64,000 nucleotides of DNA from Nitrospira tepida (GTDB lineage: Bacteria > Nitrospirota > Nitrospiria > Nitrospirales > Nitrospiraceae), in the NCBI RefSeq assembly GCF_947241125.1, contig NZ_OX365700.1:2636001-2700000 (forward strand). The letters run 5' to 3'. The position numbers and the translations under genes were made by a program. Positions 2,512 to 13,372 of this stretch are shown here, in pieces (positions within the stretch are counted from its first letter, which is position 1; each line of letters begins with the position of its first letter). Under the pieces are notes generated by a model. The model worked only from the letters and a program-made list of their open reading frames with translations, ran no database searches and had not been told where the DNA came from.

Positions 2512-2963
2512 CCAAGCGGTTTGACGCGCGCCAATCGACCGCTGCTCATCCACGCCTCAGCACCCGTCCCTCAACGCTGCAGAGCAGCCGCTTGACGACT
2601 GAGGGCTGACAACATTCCTCATTTCACATTCCTCATTTCTCATTCTTCATTCACCCCTCAGCACCCAGCACTGAGCACCTCTTGGCGTGACCCAGGATGT
2701 CACAATGGCGGAAGCCGAAAGCCCGTCGGCGAATTGCAAGTCCCCGACAAGCAAGGCCTTCTTGCATTTCCAATCCGGTCCCTCTGCTGTGACCCCAGAT
2801 GTCGCAGTGCGCCGCTACAATGGCAGTCTCGTAACCCTGGTGTTGCGTCATGGAAGTTCATTGTACTGATCTGCGGGTCGTTCCCCCTCTCCCGTGCCCT
2901 CTCGCCCGTGGGGAGAGGAGACGGTGAGGGGATGGGCCACAGGACCTGGGAAACGTATCGTTA
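2512..2963. repeat. Gene-free stretch of mixed intergenic repeats
   Basis: Contains a CATTCCTCATTTC tract (2609-2656), a CAGCACCCAGCACTGAGCAC tract (about 2655-2680), and two copies of a TTGGCGTGACCC/GATGTCAC-type motif (about 2683-2706 and 2788-2815). The first motif recurs at 9680-9703. Near 2880-2925 there is a CTCTC/GAGAG hairpin. Short open frames across it are repeat-derived and are not called. Confidence 0.5.
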
Positions 2964-3172
2964 GCCCACATGATTCATGACGGTTCGTGACGAAACCGCC
3001 CGGTCGCGTCGCGAAACGGGCACGCGGAGCCGCGAGGGAGCGACGCCTACTCTTTGCAGTACGTTGATCGACTGAACGACGAGCCCGCCCCTGTATGCAA
3101 AGACAAGGCATGCAGGGTAGTTGCAGCAGCGAATCCACGAATGCAGCAGAAGCGTTCATGGATAATGCGGGG
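2964..3172 (-). mobile_element. MITE-like element, copy 1 (inverted orientation)
   Basis: About 209 bp bounded by degenerate terminal inverted repeats: left GCCCACATGATTCATGACG, right CGTTCATGGATAATGCGGGG. Its interior matches the reverse complement of copies 2 and 3 (shared GACGAAACCGCC and GGCACGCGGAGCCGCGAGGG). TA precedes the left end, but the right end has decayed to GGTG. It encodes nothing. It is the most diverged of the three copies and abuts a gene fragment. Confidence 0.75.
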
Positions 3173-6656: not shown

Positions 6657-6970
6657 ATGGAATTCGAAATTCGGCTGCTTGAGTATGTCGATCCGCAAAG
6701 TCGGTCACCCTTTGCGGCATGGTTTGAAGGACTCAATCCACCTGCGGCCGCCAAGGTAACTGCAGCCCTCACCCAATTGTCGATGGGCAACTGATCGAGT
6801 GTGAAAGGTGTCGGGGGGAAGGCGTTTTCGAGCGGAAAATCGACTTTGGACCTGGCTACCGGGTTTATTTCGGCAAGGATGGTGACAAGCTTGTGATTCT
6901 GCTTGGGGGAAGCAGCAAGCAACGTCAGCAACAAGCGATCGAGGCGGCGCAAGCGCGATGGACGGACTAG
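6657..6970 (+). pseudogene. higB-like (RelE superfamily) toxin, frameshifted
   Basis: From ATG 6657 the frame encodes a HigB-type N-terminus (MEFEIRLLEYVD, SPFAAWFEGL) but stops at 6792-6794 after MGN. The rest of the family consensus reappears in another frame: GVFERKIDFGPGYRVYFGKD, then KLVILLGG, ending at TAG 6968-6970. About 8 expected residues around the junction are also disturbed. These toxins are ribosome-dependent or free RNases. This copy cannot make a full protein, so it is called a broken gene. Confidence 0.8.
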
Positions 6971-7162
6971 CCCGCATTATTCATAAACGTTTCTGCTGCA
7001 ATCGCGGATTCGCCGCTGCGACAGAGCCTGACGGCGGGCGTGCTCGCCGCTCAGTCTCTCGACGTACTGTTTCAAGTACGCCTTGGTCCTTCGCGGCTGT
7101 GCTTGCCCGTCTCGCCTGGCGACTGCGCGATTTCGCGACGAACCTTCATGAATAATGCGGGC
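6970..7162 (+). mobile_element. MITE-like element, copy 2
   Basis: 193 bp with 18-20 bp terminal inverted repeats (GCCCGCATTATTCATAAACG and, on the other end, CTTCATGAATAATGCGGGC) flanked by TA on both sides (6968-6969 and 7163-7164). The interior matches copy 3 (CGTACTGTTTCAAGTACGCCTT against CATACTGTTTCAAGTATGCC) and includes a small palindrome. It encodes nothing and sits between the higB-like remnant and higA. TA duplication is typical of IS630/Tc1-type transposases. Confidence 0.85.
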
Positions 7163-7212
7163 TAGCGGCGTCGCAAGGCTAGCAAGAAGGGATAGATGAG
7201 ACGGAGGGTACC

Positions 7213-7744: not shown

Positions 7745-8002
7745 CTAACGATAGACCTCTCGCCGGTGACCGATCTTGACGATTTCAACGACGTGAGCAG
7801 AATCATCAACGCCGTAGACTATGCGATAGTCCCCCTGCCGGATGCGATATCGCTCGGCTTCGCCTGAAAGCTTTTCACAGCCTGGAGGGCGCGGCCGCTG
7901 AGTCAGCCCGCGGATGCGGTCGACCACTCGGCGAAGGTCGTCCACGGGCAGTTTCCTGAGTTCCTTCTCAGCCGACCGCTTGATGACGAGACTAGCCCAC
8001 AT
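7745..8002 (-). CDS. RelE/ParE-family toxin with start codon supplied by a MITE
   Basis: 85 residues: KRSAEKELRKLPVDDLRRVV then RIRQGDYRIVYGVDD and a C-terminal VEIVKIGHRREVYR, the typical RelE/ParE core. These toxins cleave mRNA on the ribosome or inhibit gyrase. The present ATG (8000-8002) lies in the end of MITE copy 3 and gives MWASLVIK. Removing the MITE and one TA joins this frame to GTG ACG GAC TCC TAT (8221 downward), i.e. MTDSYSLVIK, overlapping the end of the antitoxin gene as is usual. The native start is thus displaced; whether the new one is translated is unknown (no good ribosome site is seen). Confidence 0.85.
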   Translation of the reverse strand: MWASLVIKRSAEKELRKLPVDDLRRVVDRIRGLTQRPRPPGCEKLSGEAERYRIRQGDYRIVYGVDDSAHVVEIVKIGHRREVYR

Positions 8003-8205
8003 TATTCATGACCGCTTCTACTGCACCCGCCGAGACGCCGCTGCGACAAGCTTGGCTGCCAGGTTCCCGCGGCCAAGCGGGCAGGCTCGCCGCTCGGTCG
8101 GTCGACATACTGTTTCAAGTATGCCTTCCTCCCTCGCGGCTCCGCGTGCCCGTCTCGCATGGCGTCTCGGCGGTTTCGTCACGAACCGTCATGAATAATG
8201 TGGGC
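7995..8205 (+). mobile_element. MITE-like element, copy 3
   Basis: 211 bp with near-perfect ends (GCCCACATTATTCATGAC and GTCATGAATAATGTGGGC) and TA on both flanks (7993-7994 and 8206-8207). It is inserted between the relB-like and relE-like genes. On the minus strand the TA plus the element's first G recreate the antitoxin's TAG stop, so the antitoxin is intact, while the toxin loses its first five codons. Confidence 0.88.
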
Positions 8206-8435
8206 TATAGGAGTCCGTCACGCTTGAGATCCTCAAGCACTTTCTCGAACGAACGTGACGGTTCCTTCGCTCGGCGATCAAACGCTTCCAGATCGACCGC
8301 ATCTTCGCGCAACGATTCCAGCACGGCGGCGTTCACCAGATCCGAGATGGAGCGGTCGGTCGTGGCAGCCTTGACCTTCAGGGCACGATACACCTGGGGC
8401 TTCAAATAGACAGTGGTGCGAGTGTCAGCAGGCAT
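8205..8435 (-). CDS. Ribbon-helix-helix antitoxin (RelB/CopG-like)
   Basis: 76 residues. The N-terminal beta strand and helices (TRTTVYLKPQVYRALKVKAA, then SISDLVNAAVLES) form an RHH DNA-binding fold. The acidic C-terminus (REDAVDLEAFDRRAKEPSRS) would bind the toxin. An AGGGAGGAG site precedes the ATG. It is the partner of the RelE/ParE-like gene downstream, now separated by MITE copy 3. The antitoxin reading frame is undamaged. Confidence 0.85.
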   Translation of the reverse strand: MPADTRTTVYLKPQVYRALKVKAATTDRSISDLVNAAVLESLREDAVDLEAFDRRAKEPSRSFEKVLEDLKRDGLL

Positions 8436-8580
8436 CCGACTCCTCCCTTGTGACGTTGTTGCATTATAGCATTATGGCATCAAAGCGTCACACCAGGGAT
8501 AGTAAGGAAAAGGCCGCATGGCCAATGACCAGTCGCGAATGACGCTTTTTATCCCCTTTAATCCTTGTCTTCGCCAATTG

Positions 8581-8643
8581 CTGATTCCACATTCCTCATT
8601 TCGCATTTCCTATTTCCCATTCCTCATTTCGCATTTTCATTCT
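8581..8643. repeat. CATTCCTCATTTC repeat tract
   Basis: At least four imperfect units (CATTCCTCATTTCGCATTTC, then CATTCCTCATTTCGCATTTT). It leads directly into the duplicated leader at 8644. An 87-codon open frame across it is repeat-derived and is not called. Confidence 0.65.
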
Positions 8644-8802: not shown

Positions 8803-9045
8803 GTGCCGACCGTACTTCGGGTAAAGGGCTATCGCTTCTTCTTTTTCAGTCTGGAAGGCAAGGAGCCCCCACACATTCATGTGGAACAAGCTGAACGGTA
8901 TGCGAAATTGTGGTTGGACCCCGTCTCTATCGCTCGCGCGAAGGGGTTTCGGAGCAGCGAATTGACGGACATCCTCCACATCGTTCAAAATAACCAACAG
9001 CTATTCCGGGAGCAGTGGCATGAGTACTTTGGCCATAAAATTTGA
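8803..9045 (+). CDS. DUF4160 domain protein (toxin-like partner)
   Basis: 80 residues from a GTG with GGAGG nearby (cggaggcaaccg). The family signature is clear: GYRFFFFSLEGKEPPHIHVE followed by AKLWLDP and a C-terminal ELTDILHIVQNNQQLF. DUF4160 proteins nearly always pair with a DUF2442 protein, as here, with a 26-base overlap. The pair is regarded as TA-like, but the biochemical activity is not established. Confidence 0.85.
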   Translation: MPTVLRVKGYRFFFFSLEGKEPPHIHVEQAERYAKLWLDPVSIARAKGFRSSELTDILHIVQNNQQLFREQWHEYFGHKI

Positions 9046-9262
9046 GCCGCTTGCCGTTGATGTCGTGTTCACGGACACGATGCTGCGCGTGGTTCTAGCC
9101 GATGGGCGCGAAGTATCCTCCCCATTGGCGTGGTTCCCGCGTTTGTTGAATGCCACGGACGAACAGCGTCGTAACTGGCGCTTGATCGGCGGAGGAATCG
9201 GTATCCACTGGGAATCCATTGACGAAGACATTTCTGTCGAAAGCCTCCTCTCCGTGCAATGA
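9020..9262 (+). CDS. DUF2442 domain protein (antitoxin-like partner)
   Basis: 80 residues. The pattern VVFTDTMLRVVLADGREVSS then PLAWFPRLLNAT and GGGIGIHWESIDEDISVESL is the standard DUF2442 fold. Its start lies inside the end of the DUF4160 gene, so expression is coupled. It is the likely binding partner and repressor of the preceding protein. Confidence 0.85.
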   Translation: MSTLAIKFEPLAVDVVFTDTMLRVVLADGREVSSPLAWFPRLLNATDEQRRNWRLIGGGIGIHWESIDEDISVESLLSVQ

Positions 9263-9324
9263 TCGAAATGGCCATTCCGGCATCTCCCATCCTCACCCAT
9301 CCACGAACCTGATAGGATCATCTG

Positions 9325-9806
9325 CAGTCATTCCTCATTTCTCAATTCCCATTCCTCATTTCCCATTCCTCATTTCCCATTCAGCCCCTCAGCACTGAGC
9401 ATCCAGCCCTCAATCCTCACCACCTTCTAAGAGCACTTCCATATGTATGTTCAGCCATTTACGTGTTAACTCCTCATTTTTAACTTCACATTCCTCATTC
9501 CCCATTCTGAACCCTTTCCTCAGCAGCCAGCCCTCAGAACTGCCGAGCAGCCGCTGTACGACGGACGGGTGACAATTGACGTTTGTTCTCCCTCCGGTAG
9601 CCCTTTCTTCGCAAATTTCTCATTCCACATTCCTCATTCGTCCTCATTCGGGCTCTATTAGCCAGCACTCAGCACTTCTTGGCGTGACCCCGGGTGTCAC
9701 AGCCACCAGGTATCCTGCATGCCCATGAACTGGCAGGAATCAAGGCGACAGCATTCCACATTCCGCATTCCACATTTCGCATTCCACATTTCGCATTCCT
9801 TATTCG
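9325..9806. repeat. Large block of intergenic repeats before the defence operon
   Basis: CATTCCTCATTTCCC units dominate 9329-9380, 9468-9512, 9612-9645 and 9748-9803. CACTCAGCAC units fill 9385-9415 and 9660-9683. At 9680-9703 the motif TTGGCGTGACCC and GGGTGTCAC forms a small palindrome (GTGACCCCGGGTGTCAC). No protein-coding gene is supported in 9263-9919. Confidence 0.65.
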
Positions 9807-9919
9807 CCCAGTGCCGATCGGCGGCATGAGAAATACGTCCATTTGTCTATAGTCCGGCGGATGATTTCTGAGAAGGAAAAAGGTATTCTTCGGCGCTGAA
9901 GTCTTGCGGGAGGGAGCCT
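9807..9919 (+). promoter_or_regulatory. Leader repeat, copy 2 (upstream of defence operon)
   Basis: Second copy of the CCCAGTGCCGATCGGCGGCA leader. It ends in GGGAGGGAGCCT, the ribosome site of the SNF2 gene. TATAGT at 9848-9853 could serve as a -10 element, but no convincing -35 is seen. It likely holds the operon promoter. Confidence 0.5.
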
Positions 9920-12900
9920 GTGACCGCCATTGCCCCGATCAAGGAAGGTCAGATTCTTACTGGCTCTTTGTTCAGCGAACCAATGCGGGTCGAGACCCTT
10001 CGACCGGGCGGTGCGGATTCGTGGATTGTTGGCCTCGTCGGGACGCAGAGCGAACGGTTCAGAAATGTCACCCTCACACCCTCCGACATTAAAGCACTTC
10101 GGATTCAAGATCCCATATACACCTATACCGGTGACGGCAATCTCCTCCGCTTAGGTCTCCAGGCCTACGTCCTTGGCATCGCATACGAATTTGATCCCTA
10201 CTTTGGTCTTTCAATTTCTCGCGTCGATCCGCTCCCTCATCAGCTCGAAGCGGTTTACGATCACCTCCTTAAGTTGGCACGCGTCCGATTTCTCCTCGCC
10301 GATGATGCCGGCGCAGGGAAAACGATCATGGCCGGCCTGCTCATCCGCGAGCTCAAGCTGCGTGGCCTGGCTGAACGCATCCTCATCGTCTGCCCAGCCA
10401 ATCTCACCTTCCAATGGCAGCGTGAGCTGAAGGAAAAGTTCGACGAGAAGTTCCTGGTCCTTAAGGGAGATGATATTCGTGACCAGTTTGGTGTGAATCA
10501 GTGGATGGAACAAAAAACGGTCCTTACATCGCTTGATTTAGCCAAACGAACCAACATCTTGCCGGGACTCCGGCAGGTTCGCTGGGACCTCGTCATTGTC
10601 GATGAAGCGCATCGCATGTCGGCCTCGGATGCGGAGCACAAAAGCCAACGATACCGCCTCGGTGAGTTCTTGCGCGACTCCAGCGACCATATCTTGCTGC
10701 TCACCGCGACACCGCACAAAGGTATCCCGGAAAACTTCAGCCTGTTCCTGCAGCTCTTGGATGAGGACGCCTATGCCGATGTCCGGTCGATTCGAGAGGC
10801 CATGAGCCGCCGTCATGCACCGTTCTATCTGCGTCGCACCAAAGAGGCCATGGTCTATTTCCCGGAGCGGCAACCCGACGGCCAATGGATTGCGCGAAAA
10901 ATCTTCACCAAGCGTATTCCACATACGGTGGACTTCAAAATCGACGGGCCGGAGGACCGTCTCTATCGTGACGTGACGGCGTACGTGAAAGCTCAATCGC
11001 ACAAAGCGGCAGCGCAAGGGGACGATCCGCGAGCCCGTGCCGTGGGCTTCCTGATGGCGCTCTATCAGCGTCGGCTTGCTTCCAGCACCTATGCGCTCCG
11101 CCATTCCCTCCAGAATCGTGCGCGGCGTTTGGAAGAGGGACTGAATCCCGCGCAGGAACTGGCCCGGCTGGCGCCGCCGCAACTGCCTGACCCGGACGAA
11201 TTGGAGGAGATGGAAGAATCCCAGCGGGAACGGCTGGAAGAAATTCTGGAGGCCATTACGCTGGCGCAGAATCCCGAACAGGTCCGCGAGAAAATCGAGG
11301 ATCTCAAGGTGCTCGCGATTCAAGCTCAGCAAGTTGAAGAGGCCGGCGTGGAGGCGAAGCTGTCCCGTCTCAAAGATGTGCTGCAGGAGCAAGGCTTCTT
11401 CGATCACCCAGAACAGCGCCTCCTCCTCTTCACCGAATTCAAAGACACACTGGACTATCTCGTGAAGTGCCTCAAGAGCTGGGGGTTCCGCGTCGGGTTC
11501 ATCCACGGTGGCATGAAGCCCGGCTCACGGGATGAACCGGGCAGCCGGTTGTATGCGGAACAGCAGTTCAAAGATGGGGCCATCCAAGTGCTCCTCGCCA
11601 CGGAGGCCGCAGGTGAGGGGATCAATCTGCAATGTTGCCACATCCTCTTTAATTACGACATTCCGTGGAATCCCAATCGGCTCGAACAGCGCATGGGCCG
11701 CATCCATCGCTACGGCCAGGTCAAGGACTGCCTCATCTTCAATTTCGTGGCGACAAATACGGTCGAGGGCCGAGTCTTGCAGAAACTGTTGGAGAAGCTT
11801 CAAGAGATCAGAGACGCCCTGGATGACGATGCGGTGTTCAACGTGGTGGGCGAAATTCTTCCGGCAGCGAGGCTCGAAAGCGTGCTGCGCGATTACTACG
11901 CCGGGCGCATGGGAGACGCGGATCTAGAGGAGCGGTTGCTGCGTGACGTGAAGGAAAAGCGCTTCCGCGAGATCTGTCAGCACGCGTTGGAGGGATTGGC
12001 CTCCAAGAAGCTGAACCTCGAAATGTTGCTCGAACGGCGGGCGAGGGCTCAGGAGCGGCGAGTCGTGCCGGAAACTATCGCGCGCTTCATCCGTGAAGTG
12101 GCGCCGCTCGTCCCATTGACGCTGAAGCCGGTCCCTGCGTTACCCCACACCTTCGAACCTGGCAGCACACCGCAAGCGCTTCGGCGATTCGAAACAGAGC
12201 CGGATTGGAAGTGCCAATCTCTGGCGAACCGGTATCCCCGGCTTTCAACTGACCGCGAGACGGCCGAGTCGCACAATCTGGAATGGGTCACGCCGGGCCA
12301 TCCGCTGTTTGAGGCACTGAGGCGCCATGCACTGGCCCAGGCTCAGGACAGTCTCGCTGTGGGAGCATGCTTCTACTCGCTGGAACAATCCGCGCCGGCG
12401 AGAATCGATTTCTATCGAGCTCGCATTGTGGACGGATTGGGCTATGTGGTCCATGAACGCCTGTTTGCCGTGCAGGTCGCGGAGGATGGAACCTGTCGCC
12501 TGCATGAGCCCAGTGTTCTGGGTAATTTACAGGCAGCACCTCTTCCAAAGACGCTTCCATCCGTCGCCACGTCACATGACGCCCAGAATTGGCTGCAGCA
12601 AGAAGCGCTCACACCATTTCTGGAAGAAGTCCGAAAGGAGCGCCTGGATGAGGTGGACCGAATCAGGGCGCACGTCGAACTATCGCTGCAGGAGTTATTG
12701 GAAAAGGAAGATCGGCTTATCGGGCGATTTGCCGAAGAAGCGGAAAGGGGAGTGGAAGGGGCCGCGGGCAGTCTCAAGCTCGCGGAAGACCGGCATGCCG
12801 TAATGCTCGCCCGGCGAGAAAAGCGGCGGCAAGAACTGGAGCGCCAACGATCGCTGACCCTCCAATCTGTCGAGCGAATGACGAGCATTCTCGTCTTCCC

Positions 12901-13372
12901 CCATCCGGAACGGAACAAGCCGGAAGTGAAGAATCTTCGACCTGATCCGGAAACGGAAGCCATCGCCATGCGCGTGGTCATCGAGCATGAGCAGGCGCAA
13001 GGCCGCACGGTCACCGACGTTCATGAAAAGGATTTGGGGTACGACATCACGAGTTTGGACACGCAATCCGGCGAGCTGCGCCTGATTGAGATCAAAGGCA
13101 TCGGTGGTGACGCTGGAACGGTTTGCCTCACGCCGAACGAGAAGCGGGTGGCTGAGGATCGTCGCGACTGTTACTGGCTCTATGTGGTCACGCACTGTAA
13201 GACGCAGCCGCGGTTTCAAGACCCGATTAAAGATCCGGCACGGCTTGATTGGCACGAGGTCAAGAAAGTCGATCACTACTATTTGTCCGTGGATGCAATG
13301 ACTCAACCGATGAAAGTCCGTGAAGATTCACCGCCATACAGCGGGCAGAACGAGTACAGGAGTAAGTCATGA
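9920..13372 (+). CDS. SNF2-family helicase with C-terminal DUF3883 nuclease-like domain
   Basis: 1150 residues, GTG start behind GGGAGG. It begins with a domain of about 100 residues, then a SNF2/SF2 ATPase: Walker A DDAGAGKT (128-135), DEAH (228-231), TATPHKG, and an EQRMGRIHRYGQ motif VI near 590. A long helical region follows. The C-terminal DUF3883 domain carries D1042 in GYDI and E1057-x-K1059 in EIKG, a PD-(D/E)xK nuclease pattern. Such helicases translocate on DNA in antiphage systems (DISARM DrmD is related). It overlaps the next gene by ATGA. It is probably the DNA-sensing or degrading engine of the operon; nuclease activity is inferred. Confidence 0.9.
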   Translation: MTAIAPIKEGQILTGSLFSEPMRVETLRPGGADSWIVGLVGTQSERFRNVTLTPSDIKALRIQDPIYTYTGDGNLLRLGLQAYVLGIAYEFDPYFGLSISRVDPLPHQLEAVYDHLLKLARVRFLLADDAGAGKTIMAGLLIRELKLRGLAERILIVCPANLTFQWQRELKEKFDEKFLVLKGDDIRDQFGVNQWMEQKTVLTSLDLAKRTNILPGLRQVRWDLVIVDEAHRMSASDAEHKSQRYRLGEFLRDSSDHILLLTATPHKGIPENFSLFLQLLDEDAYADVRSIREAMSRRHAPFYLRRTKEAMVYFPERQPDGQWIARKIFTKRIPHTVDFKIDGPEDRLYRDVTAYVKAQSHKAAAQGDDPRARAVGFLMALYQRRLASSTYALRHSLQNRARRLEEGLNPAQELARLAPPQLPDPDELEEMEESQRERLEEILEAITLAQNPEQVREKIEDLKVLAIQAQQVEEAGVEAKLSRLKDVLQEQGFFDHPEQRLLLFTEFKDTLDYLVKCLKSWGFRVGFIHGGMKPGSRDEPGSRLYAEQQFKDGAIQVLLATEAAGEGINLQCCHILFNYDIPWNPNRLEQRMGRIHRYGQVKDCLIFNFVATNTVEGRVLQKLLEKLQEIRDALDDDAVFNVVGEILPAARLESVLRDYYAGRMGDADLEERLLRDVKEKRFREICQHALEGLASKKLNLEMLLERRARAQERRVVPETIARFIREVAPLVPLTLKPVPALPHTFEPGSTPQALRRFETEPDWKCQSLANRYPRLSTDRETAESHNLEWVTPGHPLFEALRRHALAQAQDSLAVGACFYSLEQSAPARIDFYRARIVDGLGYVVHERLFAVQVAEDGTCRLHEPSVLGNLQAAPLPKTLPSVATSHDAQNWLQQEALTPFLEEVRKERLDEVDRIRAHVELSLQELLEKEDRLIGRFAEEAERGVEGAAGSLKLAEDRHAVMLARREKRRQELERQRSLTLQSVERMTSILVFPHPERNKPEVKNLRPDPETEAIAMRVVIEHEQAQGRTVTDVHEKDLGYDITSLDTQSGELRLIEIKGIGGDAGTVCLTPNEKRVAEDRRDCYWLYVVTHCKTQPRFQDPIKDPARLDWHEVKKVDHYYLSVDAMTQPMKVREDSPPYSGQNEYRSKS

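Follow-up and report, generated by a model that had tools for sequence, protein, structure and literature searches.

A MITE in the stop/start overlap of a RelE/ParE-type toxin-antitoxin module of Nitrospira tepida leaves the antitoxin intact and probably weakens the toxin

Introduction

It is well documented that MITEs can end genes, fuse to reading frames, carry promoters, or undergo RNase III cleavage (PMC2229807, PMC10969869). The Correia/NEMIS, ERIC, and RUP elements share with the Nitrospira MITE reported here a short, noncoding sequence, TIRs, a target duplication, and a stable RNA hairpin, and, like it, they occur in many copies that are inserted beside or inside genes (PMC2229807, PMC10969869). 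Pneumococcal BOX repeats often cover the 3' ends of genes, including the stop codon, and some of them give a start codon to the outgoing frame, without a good Shine-Dalgarno sequence (PMC3049150). In a literature search, largely without subscription papers, we found neither a description of this Nitrospira MITE nor a report of a MITE in a toxin-antitoxin overlap.

Here, we describe such an insertion in the genome of N. tepida (4.73 Mb in a single contig), whose close relatives include Nitrospira MAGs. All coordinates refer to the window, the whole stretch of 64,000 nucleotides that was analyzed (NZ_OX365700.1, positions 2,636,001 to 2,700,000).

Results

The gene pair and its neighborhood. The antitoxin open reading frame (ORF; 8205 to 8435, minus strand) encodes a 76-amino-acid ribbon-helix-helix protein (RelB/CopG-like) that matched RHH_1 (E value, 1.6e-4), with a RelB-like match below the cutoff, and was 87 to 93% identical to its closest orthologs. 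The toxin ORF as it is now open (7745 to 8002, minus strand) encodes 85 amino acids of the RelE/ParE family, beginning with MWA and not with MTDSY; it matched Pfam ParE_toxin PF05016 (E value, 3.5e-11) and the RelE structures 9g12, 2khe, and 3g5o. By the toxin domain and the adjoining DNA-binding antitoxin, we classify the pair as a putative type II toxin-antitoxin module of the RelE/ParE superfamily. A promoter-like site of the module, which is a consensus match only, was located at 8463 to 8491 (minus strand; GTGACG-17-TATAAT with TG).

Several features adjoin the module. Downstream, at 8577 to 8640, there are short runs of ATTCCTCATTTCGC-like 14-bp units in a tandem-like arrangement, and ATTCC/ATTTC-rich runs of a similar kind seem to be present again near 9300 to 9830, as judged from ORF translations. 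A small gene pair, DUF4160/DUF2442, occupies 8803 to 9262; such pairs are often regarded as possibly toxin-antitoxin-like. A large SNF2-type helicase whose C terminus carries a NOV_C domain (9920 to 13372) is found beside the module, in a layout reminiscent of defense islands.

The element and its family. A 209-bp element (7996 to 8204) is located exactly at the antitoxin-stop/toxin-start overlap of the module. Its ends, CCCACATTATTCATGA and TCATGAATAATGTGGG, form a perfect 17-bp TIR, and the outer 47-bp arms are 81% complementary. Within the same genome the element returned 57 matches, and the TIR with no more than one mismatch occurred 116 times in the 4.73 Mb, versus 0 times for a reversed control pattern; 38 of 61 related genomes matched a 691-bp query, mostly in its element part. 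Since the element is multicopy, its TIR matches exceed the reversed control, and it is present in related genomes, it is not a chance palindrome. Members of the family share their ends, with a terminal repeat of about 16 bp, and range from 36 to 450 bp. With its TIRs, short length, lack of a transposase gene, dispersed copies, target duplication, and empty sites in relatives, the element is a MITE, and the claim of the preliminary description that a MITE splits a relBE-like module was borne out. Two more diverged copies of the family were found in the window, at 2962 to 3171 and 6968 to 7164. An Rfam search gave no match.

The divergence of the window copy from the consensus of its subgroup and from its closest copies is about 2% (a few bases), whereas synonymous divergence from the nearest ortholog is near saturation. 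Judged by these divergences, the insertion is young.

No autonomous partner carrying the MITE ends was found among the TIR pairs listed for this genome and for further genomes, and the TIR searches in the further genomes gave no long TIR pair around a transposase. One TIR pair of 1354 bp was considered as an autonomous element and rejected, as it consists of a MITE into which an IS110-like element has inserted. Such an IS110-like (DEDD) element was found at the same internal site in two MITE copies (L091, G000:C1:2769062-2770415; L108, G000:C1:1088294 onward), which may be compared with the Coxiella QMITE2 loci that are hot spots for IS1111 (PMC5896051). IS1380 (PF13701) is present in the genome but was also rejected as a mobilizing partner, since its ends (CCCTATTCTCCGGC) are unlike those of the MITE.

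Across the family, 18 of 52 copies coincided exactly with the stop codon of a flanking ORF (90 amino acids or longer), compared with 9 of the 129 YTAR sites that the window contains (P = 9e-6); against noncoding YTAR sites, the difference was not significant (P = 0.11). A preference of the family for stop codons was not adopted, because the loss of intragenic insertions explains the siting equally well. One further copy (L072, 1310 to 1497; G034:C5) lies on the stop codon of another, unrelated RelE-family toxin gene. In-frame exits from the element ahead of other genes were found as well (e.g., L009, L012, L025, and L048), often followed at a short distance by a possible native start.

Empty sites in orthologs. 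The orthologous modules came from genomes of Nitrospirales and from three MAGs in public records (two Nitrospira and one Nitrospirae), with toxins about 59 to 83% identical to that of the window. All 27 comparable modules lacked the element at this site, and in each of them the antitoxin stop overlaps the toxin start (typical junctions are GGATCTCAAGCGTGACGGACTCTTATAAG in L064 and AAGCGTGACGGACTCCTATAGTCTG in L152). The native start in the orthologs is the overlapping GTG or, in a few, an ATG at the next codon; most have GAGG or a similar sequence 9 nucleotides before the start, and nearly all of the toxins begin M-T-x-x-Y-S at the GTG or ATG. The window has retained these parts on the far side of the element. 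GAGG is found at 8231 to 8234 (minus strand), 9 nucleotides before the GTG, and is identified as the native Shine-Dalgarno sequence by its sequence, its anti-Shine-Dalgarno energy, and the orthologs; the GTG with the first codons (MTDSY) follows at 8221 to 8207 (minus strand), arranged as in all 27 orthologs and now cut off from the toxin. Because the orthologs are element free and overlapping, they confirm the native start, which had been proposed from the window alone, and they show that the split is specific to this genome. Here, the two genes neither overlap nor directly adjoin, as the element stands between them, whereas they do so in all of the comparable orthologs; the overlap coupling has been lost. 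The unoccupied allele expected in relatives was thus found, and a toxin that begins MWAS without any element, a case that would have spoken for a different native start, was absent from the 27 orthologs. In a sister module (L067, in G010:C72), which contains no element, an in-frame TAG interrupts the toxin start. Toxin decay is therefore not unique to the window module, as L067 lost its toxin start without an element.

Target duplication and the antitoxin stop. The flanks of 70 copies of the family were compared. A 4-bp duplication was exact in 28 (18 CTAG, 6 TTAG, 2 TTAA, and 2 CTAA, all of them YTAR), and 32 more copies had one mismatch over the 4 bp (60/70 with zero or one mismatch), while the fifth flanking base agreed in only 16/70, which is the chance level. 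The target duplication of the family is best read as 4 bp, YTAR, rather than as TA. In the window, the duplication pair is imperfect, with CTAG on the toxin side (7992 to 7995, plus strand) and CTAT on the antitoxin side (8205 to 8208, plus strand). Since the orthologs read TATAG at the insertion place (CTATA on the plus strand), matching the antitoxin-side copy, CTAT probably represents the ancestral sequence, from which the toxin-side CTAG would differ by one base. For the window copy alone, a TA-only duplication may apply: the TATAG of the orthologs fits it, and l4 was the complement of r1 in 38/50, as often as l4 equaled r4 (38/50). However, l1 equaled r1 in 40/50, which favors 4 bp.

According to the preliminary description, the antitoxin TAG was recreated from the TA target and the element's first G. 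This part was not upheld, because the YTAR duplication in the flanks of the 70 copies assigns the terminal G to the target and not to the element. As read from these flanks, the TAG (8207 to 8205) is the antitoxin's own ordinary stop and was not rebuilt with element DNA, and it survives because the duplicated target includes the stop codon. The antitoxin ORF remains open over its full length with its native stop, in agreement with the earlier view that the antitoxin was kept intact.

The reading frames left to the toxin. From the native GTG, a leftover frame (8221 to 8189, minus strand) now reads MTDSYSPHYS (translation, VTDSYSPHYS*) and is closed by a TGA within the end of the element. No part of the toxin frame is open before ATG TGG GCT (8002 to 7994), which continues in frame into SLVIKRSAEK. 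The ATG (8000 to 8002, minus strand) is derived from the element and, because there is no ATG near the N terminus downstream, is the only plausible start for a full-length toxin. In a YTAR-flanked copy, the three outward frames meet a TAA in the terminal repeat, a TAR in the target copy, or this ATG (read from the repeat); since one of three exit frames has the ATG, an in-frame start is a 1-in-3 chance and not design. In the alignment, the new protein lacks the near-invariant Tyr that precedes SLVIK, together with two further residues before this motif. Downstream of these the toxin frame is intact, with 1 unusual change in 35 near-invariant columns, which is a point against attenuation. However, this is weak evidence for function since the insertion, because the element is young and synonymous sites are near saturation.

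Predicted output from the element ATG. The read-through RNA was predicted to fold at -161 kcal/mol, versus -105 ± 5 kcal/mol for shuffled sequences (z, -11.4). All three bases of the ATG were paired with a predicted probability of at least 0.998, and opening the start region was predicted to cost 37.1 kcal/mol, versus 13.0 kcal/mol at the antitoxin start; the native toxin start in two orthologs (L109 and L110) had a predicted cost of 16.5 kcal/mol. No Shine-Dalgarno sequence was found at the element ATG, where the anti-Shine-Dalgarno energy (-3.2 kcal/mol) was at the background mean (-3.1 kcal/mol); the native toxin start and the antitoxin gave -6.0 and -11.3 kcal/mol. A scan of the element found no sigma-70-like promoter site on the toxin strand, and the same scan showed no terminator. 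The earlier proposal that the insertion gives the toxin a new start codon thus stands as far as the in-frame ATG TGG GCT is concerned, but this start is predicted to function weakly, with a stable hairpin around it and no Shine-Dalgarno sequence.

Discussion

We consider it likely that a young MITE insertion, an intact antitoxin, a hidden makeshift toxin start, and reduced toxin output together explain this locus. In the proposed sequence of events, a young copy of a Nitrospira-family MITE inserted itself where stop and start overlap in a RelE/ParE-type module on the chromosome, at a target that includes the antitoxin stop, so that the duplication left the antitoxin untouched. The toxin was thereby deprived of its native Shine-Dalgarno sequence, its GTG, its first five codons, and the overlap coupling, and its remaining frame now opens at an ATG that belongs to the end of the element and is in frame by a 1-in-3 chance. 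In read-through mRNA, the element would fold into a long hairpin that buries the ATG, and toxin output would be strongly reduced or abolished, with antitoxin expression persisting. Low toxin output is expected from this model because the hairpin buries the ATG and the ATG has no Shine-Dalgarno sequence. The missing near-invariant Tyr also speaks for this explanation. A toxin strongly attenuated beside an intact antitoxin is the most likely state of the module, which probably is tamed or dying.

A second point against attenuation, and an argument for a working element ATG, is that in silico the stem is opened by ribosomes that finish the antitoxin at its TAG, which could rescue translation. A ribosome at this TAG, or at the TGA of the decapeptide, would strip the 5' arm and couple the toxin across 211 nucleotides. 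The calculated opening cost of the ATG fell from 37.1 to 10 to 15 kcal/mol with a ribosome at the TAG and to 11 to 14 kcal/mol with one at the TGA, while a ribosome elsewhere in the antitoxin had no effect (38.3 kcal/mol), and RNA unfolding is an established model of coupling (PMC12548453). We nevertheless regard such a start as unlikely: the ATG has no Shine-Dalgarno sequence and, once opened, must be used before the stem refolds; one screen, as quoted in PMC12548453, correlated structure just past the upstream stop negatively with coupling; and the allele was read in no other genome and hence shows no conservation. Taken further, the hairpin might serve as a structural bridge that brings the start beside the upstream stop, with the terminating ribosome unzipping it and carrying coupling across the 211 nucleotides. 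We hold this to be very doubtful; if true, the MITE would be a portable device for joining cistrons, since the ATG at the exit is the same in every copy and copies are often placed on stop codons.

Scarcely more probable is a toxin mRNA without the 5' arm, made from a promoter in the element or by an RNase III cut and translated from the element ATG independently of the antitoxin. A transcript beginning at 8100 would open the ATG for a predicted 10.6 kcal/mol, and Correia-type MITEs have promoters and are cleaved by RNase III (PMC10969869). However, the element has no sigma-70-like site on the toxin strand, the ATG would again have no Shine-Dalgarno sequence, and uncoupled toxin expression is expected to be costly. 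That no insertion took place, the toxin natively beginning MWAS after an ordinary intergenic palindrome, has only the open ORF in its favor and is hardly credible against a multicopy element with target duplications and a direct, element-free overlap in every comparable ortholog.

The locus offers a clean case from nature, set against many unoccupied relatives, in which a mobile hairpin parts a toxin from its antitoxin at their translational link, and it shows a possible way in which toxin-antitoxin pairs are tamed without harm to the cell. It also lends itself to a simple test of whether the end of a repeat can act as a start codon and whether translational coupling can pass over a long gap by way of a hairpin. 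Otherwise, it is mostly ordinary mobile-element tinkering.

The module resembles other RelE/ParE toxins paired with ribbon-helix-helix antitoxins in its ParE_toxin and RHH_1 matches, in having the antitoxin first, and in the overlap that its orthologs display, and it differs in that a MITE parts the native toxin start from the toxin body. The 4-bp YTAR duplication is like that of IS5 (PMC10359306), although we claim no kinship of the MITE to IS5. Compared with Correia/NEMIS, ERIC, and RUP elements, the window MITE has a different sequence, a 4-bp YTAR target, and Nitrospira-family hosts. Like BOX repeats, it lies on a stop codon and supplies a start to the outgoing frame without a Shine-Dalgarno sequence; however, the downstream frame encodes a conserved toxin domain here and a hypothetical ORF in the case of BOX.
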